Assembly (NCBI GenBank): GCA_902625415.1
Contig: CACOBG010000001.1
Location: 124,001-188,000, forward strand
Source of the DNA: an uncultured SAR86 cluster bacterium
GTDB lineage: Bacteria > Pseudomonadota > Gammaproteobacteria > Magnimaribacterales > AG-339-G14
Reading direction: 5' to 3'
Length of the DNA stretch: 64,000 bases
Shown here: positions 270-9,629 of the stretch, piece after piece
Position numbering within the stretch: position 1 is the stretch's first letter
Layout: every line of letters starts with the position of its first letter
Notes under the pieces: model-generated
Seen by the model: the letters and a program-made list of their open reading frames with translations, nothing else
Database searches by the model: none
What the model was told of the DNA's origin: nothing
Translations under genes and position numbers: made by a program

Positions 270-1358
270 TTAGCTTTTATTCTTTGACTCTAACAAAGCA
301 TTAGCAAAATCTTCCTTAATCATTTCTGAGCAAAGATCTCTTGTTGATATTGAAGGTTTCCAACCAAGCTTTTCTGAAGCTTTTTTTGCATCGCCTAATA
401 AATTATCTACTTCACTAGGTCTAAAATACTTAGGGTCAATTTTTATAATTGTCTCTCCTTTTTTAACCTTATATTTTTTAGAAGGATGTATTTCTGAAAC
501 AACTCCAACTTCCTTTGAACCCTTACCTTTAAAAGTTATTTTGATCCCTAAGTCTTCACAAGCCCACAACACAAAATCTCTTACTGAAAATTGTGTTCCT
601 GTTGCTATTACAAAATCTTCTGGTTTTTCTTGTTGAAGCATCAACCATTGCATCTCAACATAATCTTTTGCGTGTCCCCAGTCTCTTTTTGCGTCTAAAT
701 TTCCTAAATAAAGGAAGTCATCCAAACCAAGCATCACTCTTGATAACCCTCTAGAAATTTTTCTAGAAACGAATGTTTCCCCTCTTCTTGGAGACTCATG
801 ATTAAATAAAATTCCATTACATGCATAGATGTCATAAGCCTCTCTATAATTTACACAAATCCAATATGCAAAGAGTTTTGATACAGCGTAAGGGCTTCTT
901 GGATAAAATTGCGTGTCTTCATTTTGAGGAGTATTTTTGACTAATCCATAGAGTTCAGAACTAGATGCTTGGTAGAATTTACATGTTTTTTCCATTTTTA
1001 AAATTCTAATTGCTTCTAATACTCTTAATGCACCCAATGCAACAACGTCTGCGGTATATTCTGGTTCCTCAAAAGATACTGCAACATGAGATTGAGCTCC
1101 TAAATTATAAATTTCTGAAGGCCTTATCTCGCTTATAAGTCTTATAATGTTTGATGAATCTGTTAAATCTCCATAATGAAGAAATAAATTCTTATTTTCT
1201 TTGTGAGGGTCTTCAAAAATGTGATCTATCCTGCCTGTGTTAAAAGAGGAAGACCTCCTTTTCACTCCATGGACTTCATATCCTTTTTCTAAAAGAAATT
1301 CTGCCAAGTAAGAACCATCCTGGCCTGTGATTCCTGTTATTAAAGCGATTTTCTTCAA
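270..1358 (-). CDS. gmd: GDP-mannose 4,6-dehydratase
   Basis: This 362-residue short-chain dehydrogenase/reductase makes GDP-4-keto-6-deoxy-D-mannose, the precursor of GDP-fucose and GDP-rhamnose. It has the N-terminal loop [14 protein letters not shown], the signature [14 protein letters not shown], and the catalytic YxxxK in [12 protein letters not shown] followed by [16 protein letters not shown]. Length matches the family. The start codon is TTG: there is no nearby in-frame ATG, and a good GGAG ribosome site sits 9 bases upstream inside the last codons of wzz. It lies 6 bases after wzz and 8 before fcl, which places it in a minus-strand surface polysaccharide operon. Identity is secure; the final sugar is inferred from the neighbouring fcl. 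Confidence 0.95.
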
Positions 1359-1364
1359 AAGTTT

Positions 1365-2282
1365 TTACTCCAAAACCAAATCATTTTTTTTATTAGAAAA
1401 TAATACGTAATATAAACAGCTTAGAAAGAAAGAAAATAAGGTAACAAGGGTAACGATAACGAACCTTTGCGGTGAATCTTTTTCCTCTGGCGCATAGGGA
1501 AAAGAAAGGACACTAAAAAGATAATCTTTGCTAGATTTGGCTACCATAACTTTTTTTACCTGTTCTTGAACCAATGAGCTTAAAGCAATCCTTACTTCTG
1601 AAAGATTTGTTTTTATCATTTGCTCTTCTAAAAATTTAATCGATTGTTCTGCATTAGCAATATCTTTTTCTCTTTCAAGCTCATTCATTTCAAAAATGAT
1701 TGTCTCTATAGATTCTTTTGCTACTTGAGGAGAAAAATGTTCAATCGAGAGAAGTACATGTCCTGTTAAAGAATCTTTGAGTATTTGGAAATTATCTTCG
1801 TGAAAATCTTTATAAACTTCCTGAAGGGACGGTTTTCCGTCAATTGAAAATGGTTCGTTGCTTACCCATTTGTTTTGCGCGCTATCATAAATATCACCGT
1901 CTAAGATCAGATTACCTGAAGATTTATCCCACCCCGTAGAAGCTGAAAAAGCTAAATAAAAATCTTTTTTATTTATAAACCTTTCAAAAAAAGTTAAAGA
2001 CTTTAAAACTTCAATGGCATCATCGCTTTTCTTTTCTCCCGTATTTAAAAAAGGAATGGATAAACCCGCAATGGAAGACACTCCTCCAATTTGAGATGCT
2101 ATATTTGAGAGGTTAGAAGAATCTTCGTTCAGAACTACTATTACCTCGCTTTTGTATATATTAGGTAAACTTAAGGAATAAATTACAGACAAGAGAAAAA
2201 AGGCGATGGTGATTGAAAAAATACGTAATTTTTCCCTATAAATCAAAAAAAACGCTTCTCTGAGATCAATGTCTTTAGTCAT
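1365..2282 (-). CDS. wzz: Wzz-type polysaccharide chain-length regulator
   Basis: Inner-membrane polysaccharide co-polymerase that sets the modal length of O-antigen or capsule chains. From the chosen start it has 305 residues: an N-terminal MTKDIDLREAFFLIYREK, a first membrane helix at about residues 18-40, a large periplasmic part rich in coiled-coil sequence, a proline-rich FPYAPEEKDSP segment and a second helix near the C-terminus. The two-helix layout and the proline-rich lead into the second helix are classic for Wzz. An alternative ATG at 2297 adds five residues (MRVFI) and lies 1 base from the 3' end of tRNA-Leu. I prefer 2282 because Wzz proteins usually begin close to the DIDLRE motif and a weak GAGAG precedes it, but the choice is open. 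Confidence 0.85.
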   Translation of the reverse strand: MTKDIDLREAFFLIYREKLRIFSITIAFFLLSVIYSLSLPNIYKSEVIVVLNEDSSNLSNIASQIGGVSSIAGLSIPFLNTGEKKSDDAIEVLKSLTFFERFINKKDFYLAFSASTGWDKSSGNLILDGDIYDSAQNKWVSNEPFSIDGKPSLQEVYKDFHEDNFQILKDSLTGHVLLSIEHFSPQVAKESIETIIFEMNELEREKDIANAEQSIKFLEEQMIKTNLSEVRIALSSLVQEQVKKVMVAKSSKDYLFSVLSFPYAPEEKDSPQRFVIVTLVTLFSFFLSCLYYVLFSNKKNDLVLE

Positions 2283-2298
2283 AATAAAAACTCTCATC

Positions 2299-2385
2299 TG
2301 GTACCCAGGGCCGGACTTGAACCGGCACGATATTTCTATCGAGGGATTTTAAGTCCCTTGTGTCTACCAATTCCACCACCTGGGC
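2299..2385 (-). tRNA. tRNA-Leu (anticodon TAA)
   Basis: Read on the minus strand the 87-base sequence has acceptor stem GCCCAGG paired with CCTGGGT (a G-U at pair 1-72), discriminator A and an encoded CCA. The anticodon stem-loop has AGGGA and TCCCT around loop CTTAAAA, giving anticodon TAA. There is a long variable arm (CGATAGAAATATCG) and the T-loop GGTTCAAGTCC. The long arm and anticodon identify leucine. Its first base is also the last base of the galU stop codon, and wzz begins just past its CCA end. It corresponds by position to leuZ of the E. coli uvrC-pgsA-tRNA cluster. Confidence 0.97.
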
Positions 2386-3269
2386 TAATTTAATATCTCC
2401 TTCATATATCTTTTCATTTTAGGATCTTTTGAAGCTAAAGCAATATTAGCGCCTATTAAACCTTTGAAAGATCCACAATCATAAACTTTTGAGGAACTTA
2501 GGGTAGCATTTAAATTTACTTCAGAATTTATCATTGATAGCAGAGAATCAGTTAATTGGATTTCCCCATCTTTAGAAGGTCTAGCTTTTTTTAAAAATGA
2601 CATAGTTTCGCTAGGAAGAACATATCTACCAATTATTCTATAAGCTTCTTTTGATTTTAAAGATTTTGGTTTCTCTTTAAAGTTTGTAATTTTTTTAAAT
2701 TTTTGATTGTGTTTTCTACTTTTTAATAAATCTACTACACCATAATTTTTTGAAAATTTACTTGAAATTTTTTCAACTAAAACTTGGCCTTCTTTAGATA
2801 AATTAAAGTTATTAATCATATTTTTCAAATCTGATAAGGGCTTATTATTTAACAAGAATTCATCAGGCAAAAGAACGGCAAAAGGCTCATTACTTATAAA
2901 GTCACTAGCCCTGTAGATTGCGTTGCCTAAGCCAAGAGGCTTTTTTTGTTTAATGGAAGTAATTTTAATATTTTCTGGAATAATTCCTTTTACAGATTCT
3001 AAAAGTTTCTTTTTTTTGGTCTTTTTTAGAGAAGATTCTAAAAAAAAATTCTTTTCGAAATGTTTCTCAATAGCCTCTTTACTATCATTTGTGATAAAAA
3101 TAATTTGGCTTATTCCTGCATTAATGGCTTCTTCAACTACGTATTGGATAATTGGTTTGTCAAGAATGGGTAAAAGTTCTTTGGGAATGGCTTTAGAAGC
3201 GGGTAACATTCTTGTACCTAGACCCGCTACTGGAATAATAGCTTTTGTGACATTTTTAATTTCTGCCAT
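2385..3269 (-). CDS. galU: UTP-glucose-1-phosphate uridylyltransferase
   Basis: Makes UDP-glucose from UTP and glucose-1-phosphate in the cytoplasm, feeding surface glycans and, with the nearby ugd, UDP-glucuronate. The protein is 294 residues from MAEIKNVTKA. It has the sugar nucleotidyltransferase signature VAGLGTRMLPASKAIPKE at the N-terminus and PLGLGNAI and LPDEFLL later, as in GalU. A longer reading frame begins at a TTG at 3317, but MAEI gives the usual GalU N-terminus and only a 14-base overlap with the upstream fusion gene. The TAG stop shares its G with base 1 of tRNA-Leu, so there is no untranslated space between the two. Confidence 0.95.
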   Translation of the reverse strand: MAEIKNVTKAIIPVAGLGTRMLPASKAIPKELLPILDKPIIQYVVEEAINAGISQIIFITNDSKEAIEKHFEKNFFLESSLKKTKKKKLLESVKGIIPENIKITSIKQKKPLGLGNAIYRASDFISNEPFAVLLPDEFLLNNKPLSDLKNMINNFNLSKEGQVLVEKISSKFSKNYGVVDLLKSRKHNQKFKKITNFKEKPKSLKSKEAYRIIGRYVLPSETMSFLKKARPSKDGEIQLTDSLLSMINSEVNLNATLSSSKVYDCGSFKGLIGANIALASKDPKMKRYMKEILN

Positions 3270-4014
3270 ATCTATCTTCCAATCTAGTAATGTCATCCTC
3301 TGTAAGAATTTTTCCAAGCTGAACTTCTATGATCTCTAAATCTTCTTTTCCAGTATTCTCGATTGTATGAATTTCTTTTGGGTCAATGGAAAAGGTATCG
3401 CCATATTTTGCTGAACTCTCAGTTTCATTAATTTTTATTTTTCCAGATCCCTTAACTATCGTCCATTTTTCAGTTCTATGATTATGAAACTGAAGACTAA
3501 GTTTTTCTCCGCTTTTTATCGAAAGTTTTTTTACAAGAAAATAGTCGTCCTCAAAAAGATTTTCGAAGGATCCCCAGGGTCTTTTTTCTTTATAATTATT
3601 GAATTGTTCAGTTAAATCTGAGCTAGATTGAATTTTTCCACCACCTACGTCAAAAACCATTTCTATATTATTTTTTCTACAAACTTCATATTCAGGAATA
3701 TCTTTTAAGTTTTTTCGGTCACCTCCATTAGCAAAAATGTCAATCTTTCTGTTAGAAGAGAGTTTCTGTAAAGTTTTTATTACTGTGTGATCTTCGTCAA
3801 TGGAACCTATGACTTCATCGACACAGCTAAAACCCAAAATAATTTGTTTTCTCTCATTAAAAGGCATGAAAACAAAATTTTTCTTTTCTTCTAAAAATTT
3901 ATCTGAATTTACAATCACAATAAGATGATCGCCAAGTCGTTTTGCCTCTTCAAATAATTGGAGGTGTCCTATGTGCACTGGATCAAAACCACCGCTTACT
4001 ACAACTGTTTTCAT
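3256..4014 (-). CDS. Fusion: HIGH-type nucleotidyltransferase plus ManC-like cupin
   Basis: This 252-residue protein joins two domains. Residues 1-135 are a cytidylyltransferase-like fold: VVVSGGFDPVHIGHLQLF contains the HIGH motif (14-17), and a serine-rich IQSSS at 128-132 sits where family members have their second nucleotide-binding motif, as in HldE/TagD-type enzymes. Residues 143-252 match the C-terminal cupin of type II mannose-6-phosphate isomerase/ManC: RPWGSFENL, LSLQFHNHRTEKW with metal-ligand histidines 177 and 179, HTIEN and the ending ITRLEDRYGR. In ManC that cupin normally follows a GT-A pyrophosphorylase, not a HIGH domain. Context (galU, ugd, gmd, fcl) suggests activation of a sugar or polyol phosphate; substrate and nucleotide are unknown. 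No ribosome site precedes the ATG, and a strong -10 lies 14 bases upstream. Confidence 0.8.
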   Translation of the reverse strand: MKTVVVSGGFDPVHIGHLQLFEEAKRLGDHLIVIVNSDKFLEEKKNFVFMPFNERKQIILGFSCVDEVIGSIDEDHTVIKTLQKLSSNRKIDIFANGGDRKNLKDIPEYEVCRKNNIEMVFDVGGGKIQSSSDLTEQFNNYKEKRPWGSFENLFEDDYFLVKKLSIKSGEKLSLQFHNHRTEKWTIVKGSGKIKINETESSAKYGDTFSIDPKEIHTIENTGKEDLEIIEVQLGKILTEDDITRLEDRYGRN

Positions 4015-4062: not shown

Positions 4063-4136
4063 TGGAGGCTGAGGTCGGAATCGAACCGGCGTAGACGGAT
4101 TTGCAATCCGCTGCATGACCACTCTGCCACTCAGCC
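4063..4136 (-). tRNA. tRNA-Cys (anticodon GCA)
   Basis: On the minus strand 74 bases fold as a standard cloverleaf: acceptor GGCTGAG paired with CTCAGCC, discriminator T (usual for Cys), encoded CCA, anticodon arm CGGATTGCAAATCCG with anticodon GCA, and T-arm CCGGTTCGATTCCGA. It sits 13 bases after the ugd stop and about 48 bases before the fusion gene. In E. coli tRNA-Cys follows pgsA closely (with glyW) and precedes leuZ; here ugd separates it from pgsA. Confidence 0.97.
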
Positions 4137-4149
4137 AAATCAAAAGAAA

Positions 4150-5325
4150 TTAATCTACTTGAAAAATATCTCTTGTAAATACTTTTTTCTTAACGTCTCC
4201 TAATTTTTTTGAATGTCTATTAGCTAGAATCAAATCTGACTTTTCTTTAAAAACCTCAAAGTCTTTGACAACACTCAATCCTAAATAAGTTTTTTTATCT
4301 AGATGAGGCTCATATATTATTATTTCTTTCTTTGCTTTTTTTAACCTCCTTATGATTCCCTGTATAGATGAAGATCTAAAATTATCAGATCCTTTCTTCA
4401 TTGAAAGAAGATAAATTCCAATAATTTTAGAAGAAGAATTAATTATTTTTTCCGAAATTAAATCTTTTCTTACTTCATTTGAATTTACCACAGCCTTAAT
4501 CAGTCTTTGTGGAATAGAGTCATAGTTTGCTAGAAGTTGTTTAGTATCTTTTGGTAAACAATACCCGCCATATCCAAAGGACGGATTATTATAAAAATTC
4601 CCGATTCTTGGATCTGCGGAGACTCCAGAAATTATTGATTTTGAATCAAAATTTTTGAATAAACTATAGCTATCCAGCTCATTAAAAAACGAAACTCGCA
4701 TTGCTAAAAAAGTATTTGAAAATAATTTCACAGCTTCTGCTTCTGAGGATTTCATAAAATATACCTCTGTGTTCTTTTTAGAAATTTCTTGAAGAAGATT
4801 TGAAAAAATTTTAGCTTTTGCATTTGATGAGCCGATAATAATCCTTGAAGGAAAAAGATTATCCTTAATACTGCATCCTTCTCTTAAGAACTCAGGTGAA
4901 AAGATTATATTTTTTGTTTTGTGTTTTTTTTGCATCTTTTCCGTAAAACCTACAGGAACAGTAGATTTAATTACTATAAGAGCAGATTTATTTATCCTTC
5001 TTGTTTCTTGGATAACAAGTTCAACAATGGATGTATCGAAATTGTTATTTTTTTCGTTAAAGTTAGTAGGGGTGCAGACAATTACAAATTCTGATTTTTT
5101 TAAAGATTTCTTGTAATTTGTTGATGCTGAAAAAGTAAGTCTTTTTTCTTTTAAAAATTTTTTTAACTCATTTTCTTTAAGATGAGTTTTTTTATTTTGG
5201 AGCAGATCAACTTTTTTAATGTCCTTTTCCAAAAAAGTAACGTCATTTTTTCTAGCTAAAAGAGCTCCTAATGATGTTCCTACATATCCCGCGCCTACGA
5301 CTGTGATTTTAGTTTTGGTTTTCAT
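4150..5325 (-). CDS. ugd: UDP-glucose 6-dehydrogenase
   Basis: NAD-dependent double oxidation of UDP-glucose to UDP-glucuronate, a cytoplasmic step for acidic exopolysaccharide. The 391-residue protein begins with the NAD-binding loop ITVVGAGYVGTSLGALLA, carries CTPTN, STVPVGFTEKM, SPEFLREGCSIKDN and the catalytic-cysteine motif GYGGYCLPKDT, where the family consensus is GFGGSCFPKDT. The order of domains (NAD-binding, linking helix, UDP-binding) is normal. It overlaps the pgsA stop by 17 bases, so it is co-transcribed with pgsA, an arrangement that separates pgsA from tRNA-Cys. It is shorter than some Ugd proteins but similar to the bacterial short form. A dehydrogenase for a different UDP-sugar cannot be excluded, though galU next door supplies UDP-glucose. 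Confidence 0.92.
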   Translation of the reverse strand: MKTKTKITVVGAGYVGTSLGALLARKNDVTFLEKDIKKVDLLQNKKTHLKENELKKFLKEKRLTFSASTNYKKSLKKSEFVIVCTPTNFNEKNNNFDTSIVELVIQETRRINKSALIVIKSTVPVGFTEKMQKKHKTKNIIFSPEFLREGCSIKDNLFPSRIIIGSSNAKAKIFSNLLQEISKKNTEVYFMKSSEAEAVKLFSNTFLAMRVSFFNELDSYSLFKNFDSKSIISGVSADPRIGNFYNNPSFGYGGYCLPKDTKQLLANYDSIPQRLIKAVVNSNEVRKDLISEKIINSSSKIIGIYLLSMKKGSDNFRSSSIQGIIRRLKKAKKEIIIYEPHLDKKTYLGLSVVKDFEVFKEKSDLILANRHSKKLGDVKKKVFTRDIFQVD

Positions 5326-7668: not shown

Positions 7669-9334
7669 CTGGCCTTCTCCAATCAGAATAAGATTCAATA
7701 CTACCCTTCTTTGACAGGATAGAATGAACTTCTCCAAGTTTTCTATTGATAACTTTTTTTTCTTTTTTTAAATTTTTAAGTAAGCCTTCTTCAAATTTTT
7801 CATGAAATACCAAATCTGGTAAGTGTTGAAAATGAACCCTACTTTTTTCAGATGATTCTTTTAGTGTCATTTTAAAATCTAATACATTCAATATTTCCTG
7901 GAGAACTGTTGATATAATTGTGGAACCTCCTGGGGATCCAGTTATTAAAAAAGGTTTATCTTTTAAAAAAACAATAACGGGTGTCATAGATGATAGTGGA
8001 GTTTTGTTAGGTTCAATTTTATTTGCTTCAGAACCGACTAAGCCATACGCATTTGGATATCCAGGTTTTGAAGAAAAATCATCCATTTCATTGTTCATTA
8101 AAATTCCAGTACTAGAGGGAATAATTCCAGAACCATAGGCAGTATTAAGTGTATATGTATTGCTTACAGCGTTTCCCCACTTATCAAGGACTGAAAAATG
8201 AGTTGTTTCTTCTCCTTCTATGATATCGATTTTAATCTTTGGAGGAGATTTTTTTCTCTCAATTAATTTATATATATCTTTTGCATATTTTTTTGAAGTA
8301 AGTTTTTTTTGAGGTACATTAAAAAAATCCGGATCCCCCAAAAACTTTGCTCTATCGTGAAAAGCGTAATCCATTGAAGAGATTAATAATCTTAAATAAT
8401 CTTCTGAATTGTGTTCAAGTTTATTTAAATCATTATTTTCTAAAATATTCAACATTTGGATTAAAGCAATTCCACCTGAGCTAGGAGGAGGCATAGAACA
8501 GATTTTATATTCTCTATAAAATCCACAAACTGGATCTAAAATTCTTAATTTATATTCCTTCAGATCCTTTAAAGACAAGATGCCGTTTTTACTTTCAAAG
8601 AAATTAGAAATTTTTTTTGCTGTTTCGCCTGAATAAAATTCCTCTTTTCCATTTTTAGAAATTTTTTCTAGAGTATTTGCTAGATCTTTTTGGATTAATT
8701 TATCTCCTTCAACAAATCCATTTGGTCTGGTAAAGATTTTTTTGGCATCTTTATTTTTGCTAAACTTGGCTTTGTATTTATTTAAATTTTTTGCCTGAAA
8801 ATCTGAGAGAGTAAATCCATTTCTTGCTAGGTTTATCGAAGGTTTTATAAGATCTTTCATTTTTCTTGATCCAAAATTCTCTTGTGCATAAAACATTCCT
8901 GATATTGTTCCAGGTACGCCTGATGCTAGGATAGAATTTAAACTCAATCCTTTTATGACCTCTCCGTTTGGATCTTGATACATTGTTTCGAATGATTTGC
9001 TTGGAGCCCGTTCTCGATAATCTATTGCGATACTTTCCTTATTTTCTTTCAGGTAGATAAGCATAAATCCTCCACCACCTATATTGCCAGCTGATGGATT
9101 AACAACAGCTAATGCAAACGCAATTGCTATGGAAGCATCTATAGCATTACCGCCTTCTTCTAGAACTTTCATTCCAATATCTGTAGCAAGGTGATGCCTA
9201 GATGCAACTGCATAAGTATCAGATTTGATGAAGTTAGAATGTGAAAATAATAGAATTAAAAGAAATGCTATTTTTTGAAAATTTTGATTGTAAATATTTC
9301 TAATTTGGCTTTTCTTCAGTATGCCTTTCACCAT
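7640..9334 (-). CDS. ggt: Gamma-glutamyltranspeptidase
   Basis: Periplasmic N-terminal nucleophile hydrolase that cleaves glutathione and other gamma-glutamyl compounds; the precursor cleaves itself into two subunits. From ATG 9334 it has 564 residues; a TTG at 9349 is a less likely start. A hydrophobic export segment (KIAFLLILLFSHSNF) follows a rather long N-terminal stretch. The body shows NAIDASIAIAFALAVVNP, GNIGGGGFML and, at about residue 377, the autocatalytic threonine in EETTHFSVLDKWGNAV, then NTAYGSGI and GSPGGSTII. Total length is typical. In an oligotroph it may help recycle organic nitrogen and sulphur from peptides. Its start overlaps the upstream cupin gene by 35 bases, so translation is probably coupled. 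Confidence 0.94.
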   Translation of the reverse strand: MVKGILKKSQIRNIYNQNFQKIAFLLILLFSHSNFIKSDTYAVASRHHLATDIGMKVLEEGGNAIDASIAIAFALAVVNPSAGNIGGGGFMLIYLKENKESIAIDYRERAPSKSFETMYQDPNGEVIKGLSLNSILASGVPGTISGMFYAQENFGSRKMKDLIKPSINLARNGFTLSDFQAKNLNKYKAKFSKNKDAKKIFTRPNGFVEGDKLIQKDLANTLEKISKNGKEEFYSGETAKKISNFFESKNGILSLKDLKEYKLRILDPVCGFYREYKICSMPPPSSGGIALIQMLNILENNDLNKLEHNSEDYLRLLISSMDYAFHDRAKFLGDPDFFNVPQKKLTSKKYAKDIYKLIERKKSPPKIKIDIIEGEETTHFSVLDKWGNAVSNTYTLNTAYGSGIIPSSTGILMNNEMDDFSSKPGYPNAYGLVGSEANKIEPNKTPLSSMTPVIVFLKDKPFLITGSPGGSTIISTVLQEILNVLDFKMTLKESSEKSRVHFQHLPDLVFHEKFEEGLLKNLKKEKKVINRKLGEVHSILSKKGSIESYSDWRRPDGKASAVYK

Positions 9335-9629
9335 TAAATATTGCAGCAAATTCTAAAATCTCATTAGATTCATTAAAGACTCTATGAAATGCACCATCTG
9401 GAACTGGGATAACATCTCCTTGTTTAACTTCAAATTTTGAGTCATCAATTTGCATTACTCCTGTTCCTTTGTAAAAAACATAAACTTCTTCTTGGCCCTC
9501 ATGTTTATGGCCAGATGTACTTTTTTTTGGATTTAATTTAGTAATGCTAGGAACGAGTTTTGACAAAGAGCTATTGTCAAGAACTACATACCTATCGTCC
9601 TCTTTAACAACATGCCAATTATTATCCAT
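9300..9629 (-). CDS. Small cupin-domain protein
   Basis: A 109-residue single-domain cupin. Cupin motif 1 is visible as SGHKHEGQEEVYVFYKGTG (two histidines and a glutamate that bind metal) and motif 2 as GDVIPVPDGAFHRVFN with the third histidine. Proteins of this size include oxygenases, isomerases and sugar-binding regulators, and nothing in the sequence decides between them. It lies between pyrF (3 bases) and ggt (overlap 35 bases), so it is co-transcribed with both. No catalytic role is assigned. Confidence 0.85.
   Translation of the reverse strand: MDNNWHVVKEDDRYVVLDNSSLSKLVPSITKLNPKKSTSGHKHEGQEEVYVFYKGTGVMQIDDSKFEVKQGDVIPVPDGAFHRVFNESNEILEFAAIFNGERHTEEKPN

Follow-up and report, generated by a model that had tools for sequence, protein, structure and literature searches.

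A nucleotidyltransferase-cupin fusion protein as a proposed ManC analogue in SAR86 cluster bacteria

The fusion gene and its glycan locus

The window analyzed here is a stretch of 64,000 nucleotides from contig CACOBG010000001.1 of an uncultured SAR86 cluster bacterium. It contains, on the minus strand at 3256..4014, a gene for a 252-amino acid (aa) protein in which a HIGH-type nucleotidyltransferase (NTase) is fused to a type II phosphomannose isomerase (PMI) cupin, and which is proposed to be an analogue of ManC. The open reading frame (ORF) begins with ATG and has no internal stops. The pairing of these two domains in one ORF, read from the sequence in an initial annotation, was borne out by Pfam, where PF01467 (CTP_transf_like) matched residues 7-99 (E 3.5e-13, above the curated cut-off) and PF01050 (MannoseP_isomer) matched residues 139-247 (E 1.9e-29, 102.6 bits against a cut-off of 23.6). 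Pfam returned only these two families and Cupin_2, and the GT-A domain PF00483 was not matched in the protein. No NCBIfam equivalog reached its cut-off, which agrees with the initial remark that this is no standard two-step enzyme. The ManC profile TIGR01479 gave 105.1 bits (cut-off 372.95) on the cupin part only (profile positions 345-467), and the N-terminal domain scored 57.6 bits with the TagD profile TIGR01518 (cut-off 165.4) and 51 bits with the HldE domain II profile TIGR02199 (cut-off 181.5).

The NTase domain spans residues 1-135 (3610..4014, minus strand, as are the other features of this gene) and the cupin domain spans residues 139-252 (3259..3600). The HxGH motif, serine-rich second motif and LEDRYGR ending noticed initially were located as H14-I-G-H17 (residues 14-17, 3964..3975), S130-S131-S132 (3619..3627) and a C-terminal LEDRYGRN. 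In an alignment of 45 diverse fusion homologues, H14, G16, H17, K44, K45, R55, G97-R100, K127 and S130-S132 were invariant in the NTase, and Q175, H177, R180, E182, W184, H216 and E230 in the cupin. An AlphaFold model built from the 45 homologues contained the two expected domains, with a mean pLDDT of 92.9.

Among solved structures, those nearest to the cupin model were the Thermococcus phosphomannose isomerases 7zvm and 7zvy (Z 17.6, root-mean-square deviation (rmsd) 1.2 Å), which are stand-alone proteins and have H-x-H where ManC and the fusion family read Q-x-H. The H-x-H...E...H of the Thermococcus enzyme aligned with Q175-x-H177...E182...H216 of the fusion and of ManC, and Q175, H177, R180, E182, W184 and H216 were invariant in six ManC proteins as well. 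By comparison with the cupin family, Q175 (3490-3492), H177 (3484-3486), E182 (3469-3471) and H216 (3367-3369) are the putative metal ligands, giving a predicted metal-site span of 3367..3492, and these positions, whose retention had been put forward as a check, are intact. Loss of metal binding was considered on account of H179, the apparent second histidine of a literal H-x-H, which varies, and was rejected because comparison with ManC and the archaeal isomerase gives Q175, H177, E182 and H216 as the conserved positions; H179 is not conserved in ManC either. The varying H179 and the existence of stand-alone NTase homologues would suit a non-catalytic or regulatory ligand-binding cupin, with the NTase as sole enzyme and mannose-6-phosphate obtained from elsewhere, but this reading is improbable in view of the residues kept invariant across the 45 fusions and six ManC proteins, their alignment on the Thermococcus metal site, and the absence of type I PMI (PF20511) from the genomes tested, including that of the window. 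An isomerase step catalyzed by the cupin is well supported as a sequence-based prediction.

The neighbouring genes are those given in the initial annotation and mark a surface-glycan locus, all on the minus strand. A galU-like UTP-glucose-1-phosphate uridylyltransferase gene downstream of the fusion (2385..3269; TIGR01099 273 bits, below the cut-off of 326.8) likely starts with the ATG at 3269 and so overlaps the fusion gene. A wzz-like chain length determinant gene (1365..2297; PF02706), gmd for GDP-mannose 4,6-dehydratase (GMD; 270..1358; TIGR01472 574 bits, cut-off 415) and ugd for UDP-glucose 6-dehydrogenase (4150..5325; TIGR03026 320 bits, above cut-off) are also present, gmd being the consumer of GDP-mannose in the cluster. 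Outside the window, an fcl-like gene (L236 17329-18261) comes next after gmd, and a gene for an RfbH-like pyridoxal phosphate enzyme (aminotransferase; L236 16161-17342, minus strand) lies beside the two, just beyond the window edge; this set would also fit GDP-colitose instead of GDP-fucose.

Occurrence of the fusion and of ManC in bacterial genomes

The genome carrying the window is 90.6 % complete. Its PF00483 proteins are the galU-like protein of the window, GlmU and a MurU-like protein encoded beside an amgK-like gene, and at this completeness no other mannose-1-phosphate guanylyltransferase was detected in it. A GT-A protein of 222-232 aa, present in 10 of 10 genomes checked, was tried as a guanylyltransferase and rejected, its best profile being MurU (182 bits, cut-off 250) and its gene adjoining that of an amgK-like kinase. 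The genome also carries two genes of the PGM/PMM family, and no protein besides the fusion matched PF01050 strongly. Since the cluster encodes gmd and an fcl-like gene, a source of GDP-mannose is required, for which no candidate other than the fusion was found in this genome.

About 110 genomes were compared in all, of which 75 were SAR86-order genomes at least 85 % complete. The fusion was found in 48 of these 75 (46 intact and full-length, two with frameshifts), GT-A ManC in nine (G012, G025, G028, G029, G031, G034, G049, G056 and G063), and the two together in none. Family f2 accounts for four of the nine ManC genomes and has no fusions; without it, 64 genomes remain, five with ManC and 48 with the fusion. 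Genes for gmd above cut-off occurred in 17 SAR86-order genomes, 12 with the fusion and no ManC and five with ManC and no fusion, and in none of the 18 genomes that have neither. Naive p-values, which the shared ancestry of the genomes makes too optimistic, were 3.7e-5 for the zero overlap (5.7e-4 without f2) and 0.005 for gmd always falling within carriers of ManC or the fusion. Genera g1, g6 and g14 each hold both ManC genomes and fusion genomes, and several switches have therefore taken place.

Beside rnd, where the glycan island borders on other genes, one of the two enzymes has replaced the other. The fusion directly adjoins rnd in G009, ManC directly adjoins rnd in G012 of the same genus, and the following genes of the two genomes match one by one (51, 44, 69, 99, 89 and 86 % identity). 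The fusion is also found beside rnd in L009 (G014), L010 (G011), L013 (G006) and L017 (G002), and in congeners of G009 it is likewise followed by rnd with its conserved flank.

Homologues beyond SAR86 were sought in a bacterial scan with one genome per species (at least 80 loci). Among the matches listed, fusion homologues came from Pelagibacteraceae (SAR11), Parcubacteria, Kaiserbacteria, Nomurabacteria, Flavobacteriaceae, Bacteroidetes, Chloroflexi, Dadabacteria and Neomarinimicrobiota as well as SAR86, and a viral scan (at least 80 loci) gave full-length homologues in more than 70 uncultivated viral contigs. The architecture, whose recurrence had been put forward as a check, is thus widespread across several phyla and phage contigs. 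Two genes joined by a sequencing or assembly error, an explanation for which no point was found, can be dismissed, as continuous full-length ORFs occur on more than 100 independent contigs, with such homologues in 46 of the 75 SAR86-order genomes, dozens of bacterial loci and the viral contigs.

A sample of 36 genomes was taken from the loci of the other groups, comprising 33 with the fusion, two with split genes and one with a stand-alone NTase. Sixteen of the 36 had gmd above cut-off, and none of these 16 had a GT-A guanylyltransferase (TIGR01479). Weak GT-A matches in fusion genomes G088, G097 and G110 (L238, L240 and L241) were rejected as guanylyltransferases and read as RmlA-type; the MurU-like GT-A protein of fusion genome G091 is a possible guanylyltransferase. 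In 10 non-SAR86 loci gmd lay within 2.4 kb of the fusion, and in L034 and L037 gmd, a GDP-mannose mannosyl hydrolase-like (gmm-like) gene and an fcl-like gene adjoined it; enterobacterial clusters carry the set gmd-fcl-gmm-manC. In a Patescibacterium (L042, 3413-5410, plus strand) a single 665-aa ORF combines NTase, cupin and GMD (PF01467, PF01050 and PF16363; TIGR01472 587 bits) and is followed by an fcl-like gene. In L048 and L053 the NTase and cupin are separate adjacent genes, followed by two GH130 genes; the mannoside phosphorylases of this family release mannose-1-phosphate.

A tree of the N-terminal domain placed the query in a clade together with proteins of SAR86, Flavobacteriaceae and Woeseia and with stand-alone NTases; Patescibacteria formed a sister group, and most other SAR86 proteins clustered with phage proteins. 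The tree was built from few columns and has many unresolved forks.

Proposed function and relation to known enzymes

The fusion is quite probably a bifunctional enzyme of the GDP-mannose pathway, a ManC analogue in which the pyrophosphorylase half has been replaced. The C-terminal cupin, as a type II PMI that depends on a metal, is predicted to interconvert fructose-6-phosphate and mannose-6-phosphate. A separate AlgC-type phosphomannomutase would convert mannose-6-phosphate to mannose-1-phosphate, and the N-terminal HIGH domain would form GDP-mannose and pyrophosphate from GTP and mannose-1-phosphate, in place of a GT-A guanylyltransferase. In the genome of the window, GDP-mannose would then pass through Gmd and the fcl-like enzyme to GDP-6-deoxyhexoses (GDP-fucose or GDP-colitose) for the surface glycan. 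The first and third steps would reside in one protein, as in ManC, so that of the initially proposed isomerization and activation by the same protein the bifunctional pairing holds but the succession does not, a separate phosphomannomutase standing between.

This assignment is drawn from the mutual exclusion of ManC and the fusion, with gmd genomes carrying exactly one of them; the replacement of one by the other beside rnd within a genus; a genome that has PMM-type genes and lacks any other GT-A candidate or type I PMI; the gmd, gmm-like and fcl-like neighbours and the NTase-cupin-GMD protein of L042; the split genes of L048 and L053 beside GH130; the match of the cupin to phosphomannose isomerases with all ManC metal-site positions retained; and the resemblance of the NTase to HldC and HldE, which use a manno-configured sugar 1-phosphate. 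From the domains, their intact motifs, the distribution, the synteny and the absence of other candidates we infer both catalytic activities, and genome context is the basis on which guanylyl transfer by the HIGH domain, its preference for GTP and the physiological product are put forward.

The N-terminal model has a Rossmann-type fold and had its best structural match in the glycerol-3-phosphate cytidylyltransferase TagD (1coz, Z 17.2) and also matched HldC (5xf2, Z 16.0, rmsd 2.1 Å over 128 residues), with which it has superfamily and fold in common. A full-length Foldseek match to CapF (2zkl) was discarded, as only the cupin matched and the overall superposition was wrong (rmsd 14-18 Å). Sugar-site motifs of HldC have been placed by docking at NSD, KG and KGG (PMC7993394), and their counterparts in the fusion are N36-S37-D38, K44-K45 and the GGD of NGGDR; TagD reads STD and GDD where the fusion has NSD and GGD. 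The fusion is far under the TagD cut-off and lacks a teichoic-acid context. It differs from HldC and HldE in its SSS second motif (STT in those enzymes), its invariant NGGDR-type motif, its cupin, its independence of heptose genes, and profile scores of 51-75 bits, far under the cut-off of 181.5. The similarity to HldC and HldE, and the activity of some GMD homologues on GDP-heptose, could point to a sugar other than mannose, such as GDP-manno-heptose, with the cupin isomerizing a heptose phosphate and GMD-like enzymes acting on GDP-heptose. That alternative is very improbable, because the gmd gene is far over the GDP-mannose dehydratase cut-off, the neighbours include fcl-like and GDP-mannose mannosyl hydrolase-like genes, and the fusion changes places with a true ManC.

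With ManC/AlgA (TIGR01479), the proposed ManC analogue shares a C-terminal PF01050 cupin with identical invariant residues, gene neighbourhoods with gmd, fcl and gmm, a genomic slot in one SAR86 genus, and both predicted reactions; where ManC has its GT-A half (about 350 aa, PF00483), the analogue has a domain of some 135 aa from the unrelated HIGH superfamily. It is best read as working like ManC without being a member of that family, since the GT-A half is missing. A survey of jumbo phages proposes NDP-sugar synthesis by phage HIGH NTases and cupin isomerases (PMC7824862), and the parts of it consulted describe no fused protein and no link to GDP-mannose or ManC. Neither the fusion nor a HIGH-type mannose-1-phosphate guanylyltransferase was found described in the open PMC literature.

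Several points weigh against a role in GDP-mannose synthesis. The HIGH-type nucleotidyltransferases known to us take CTP or ATP; nucleotide specificity is not legible from the fusion sequence; HldC and HldE use the beta-anomer and GDP-mannose is alpha. A GT-A guanylyltransferase accompanies the fusion in three of the 33 non-SAR86 fusion genomes, and the phages that carry the fusion include ones in which no GDP-mannose gene is seen. The compared genomes share ancestry and are incomplete, and the MurU and galU-like assignments lie under curated cut-offs. Alternatively, the cupin could be a true PMI and the HIGH domain, which lies nearest to the TagD and HldE profiles, could make a different NDP-sugar (linked to CDP, ADP or UDP and perhaps of a mannose type), with GDP-mannose coming from an undetected guanylyltransferase. 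This is unlikely: the PF00483 matches of the genome are only galU-like, MurU and GlmU, the missing enzyme would be needed in 12 SAR86-order and 16 other gmd genomes without ManC, and the locus swap and the NTase-cupin-GMD protein are left unexplained. The rare CDP- or ADP-sugar suggested in the initial annotation finds no support, and ManC exclusion, gmd co-occurrence, the swap and the L042 protein point to ordinary GDP-mannose.

In the wider reading, which is likely, the fusion is a second, non-homologous GDP-mannose pyrophosphorylase, an HldC/TagD-like HIGH domain on a ManC isomerase cupin, that took over from the GT-A enzyme in SAR86, SAR11, many Patescibacteria and others and serves as a glycan-precursor gene in many uncultivated phages. 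Among sugar donors GDP-mannose has a central place, and the guanylyltransferases known to us that make it are GT-A enzymes. If the assignment is correct, a core enzyme has been displaced non-homologously in bacteria that rank among the most abundant in the sea, an apparent pathway gap is filled in these and in reduced Patescibacteria, and annotations as 'cytidyltransferase' or 'cupin' are to be corrected. The sequence comparisons suggest a second, independently built bacterial GDP-mannose enzyme that serves abundant bacteria of the ocean, very small ones of ground water and many phages.

Viral homologues and further features

Many of the viral contigs with the fusion carry genes read as RecA/UvsX- and helicase-like, and in many of them GT8-type glycosyltransferase and methyltransferase genes adjoin the fusion. 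The proposed GDP-mannose assignment would also suggest what the gene does in phages, beside their glycosyltransferases. Cultured phage records gave single-domain matches only and no fusion, and there was none among the matches listed from plasmid records. A conserved block in viral contigs such as L108, L117 and L165 consists of genes for a RecA/UvsX-like protein, a small protein, a 150-aa protein, a methyltransferase, the fusion, a GT8-type glycosyltransferase and a large unknown family (cluster c2). In L126 (6380-6823), L168 (6396-6833) and L173 (6478-6936), viral contigs that carry a ClpX-like gene, a short ORF of 145-152 aa lies two genes downstream of the fusion, clusters with the fusion family and probably encodes another HIGH-type NTase.

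One SAR86 genome, G038, holds only the NTase half (147 aa; L243 4106-4549, minus strand) between gyrA- and pntB-like genes, where other SAR86 genomes carry the fusion; the cupin has apparently been lost, and G038 has neither ManC nor gmd. Within the window, tRNA-Leu(taa) (2299-2385, minus strand) and tRNA-Cys(gca) (4063-4136, minus strand) sit among the glycan genes, next to pgsA- and uvrC-like genes, and the glycan island occupies a tRNA locus. A stand-alone cupin of 109 aa (9300-9629, minus strand), barely over the PF01050 cut-off (23.7 bits), adjoins a pyrF-like gene in an arrangement conserved in relatives.
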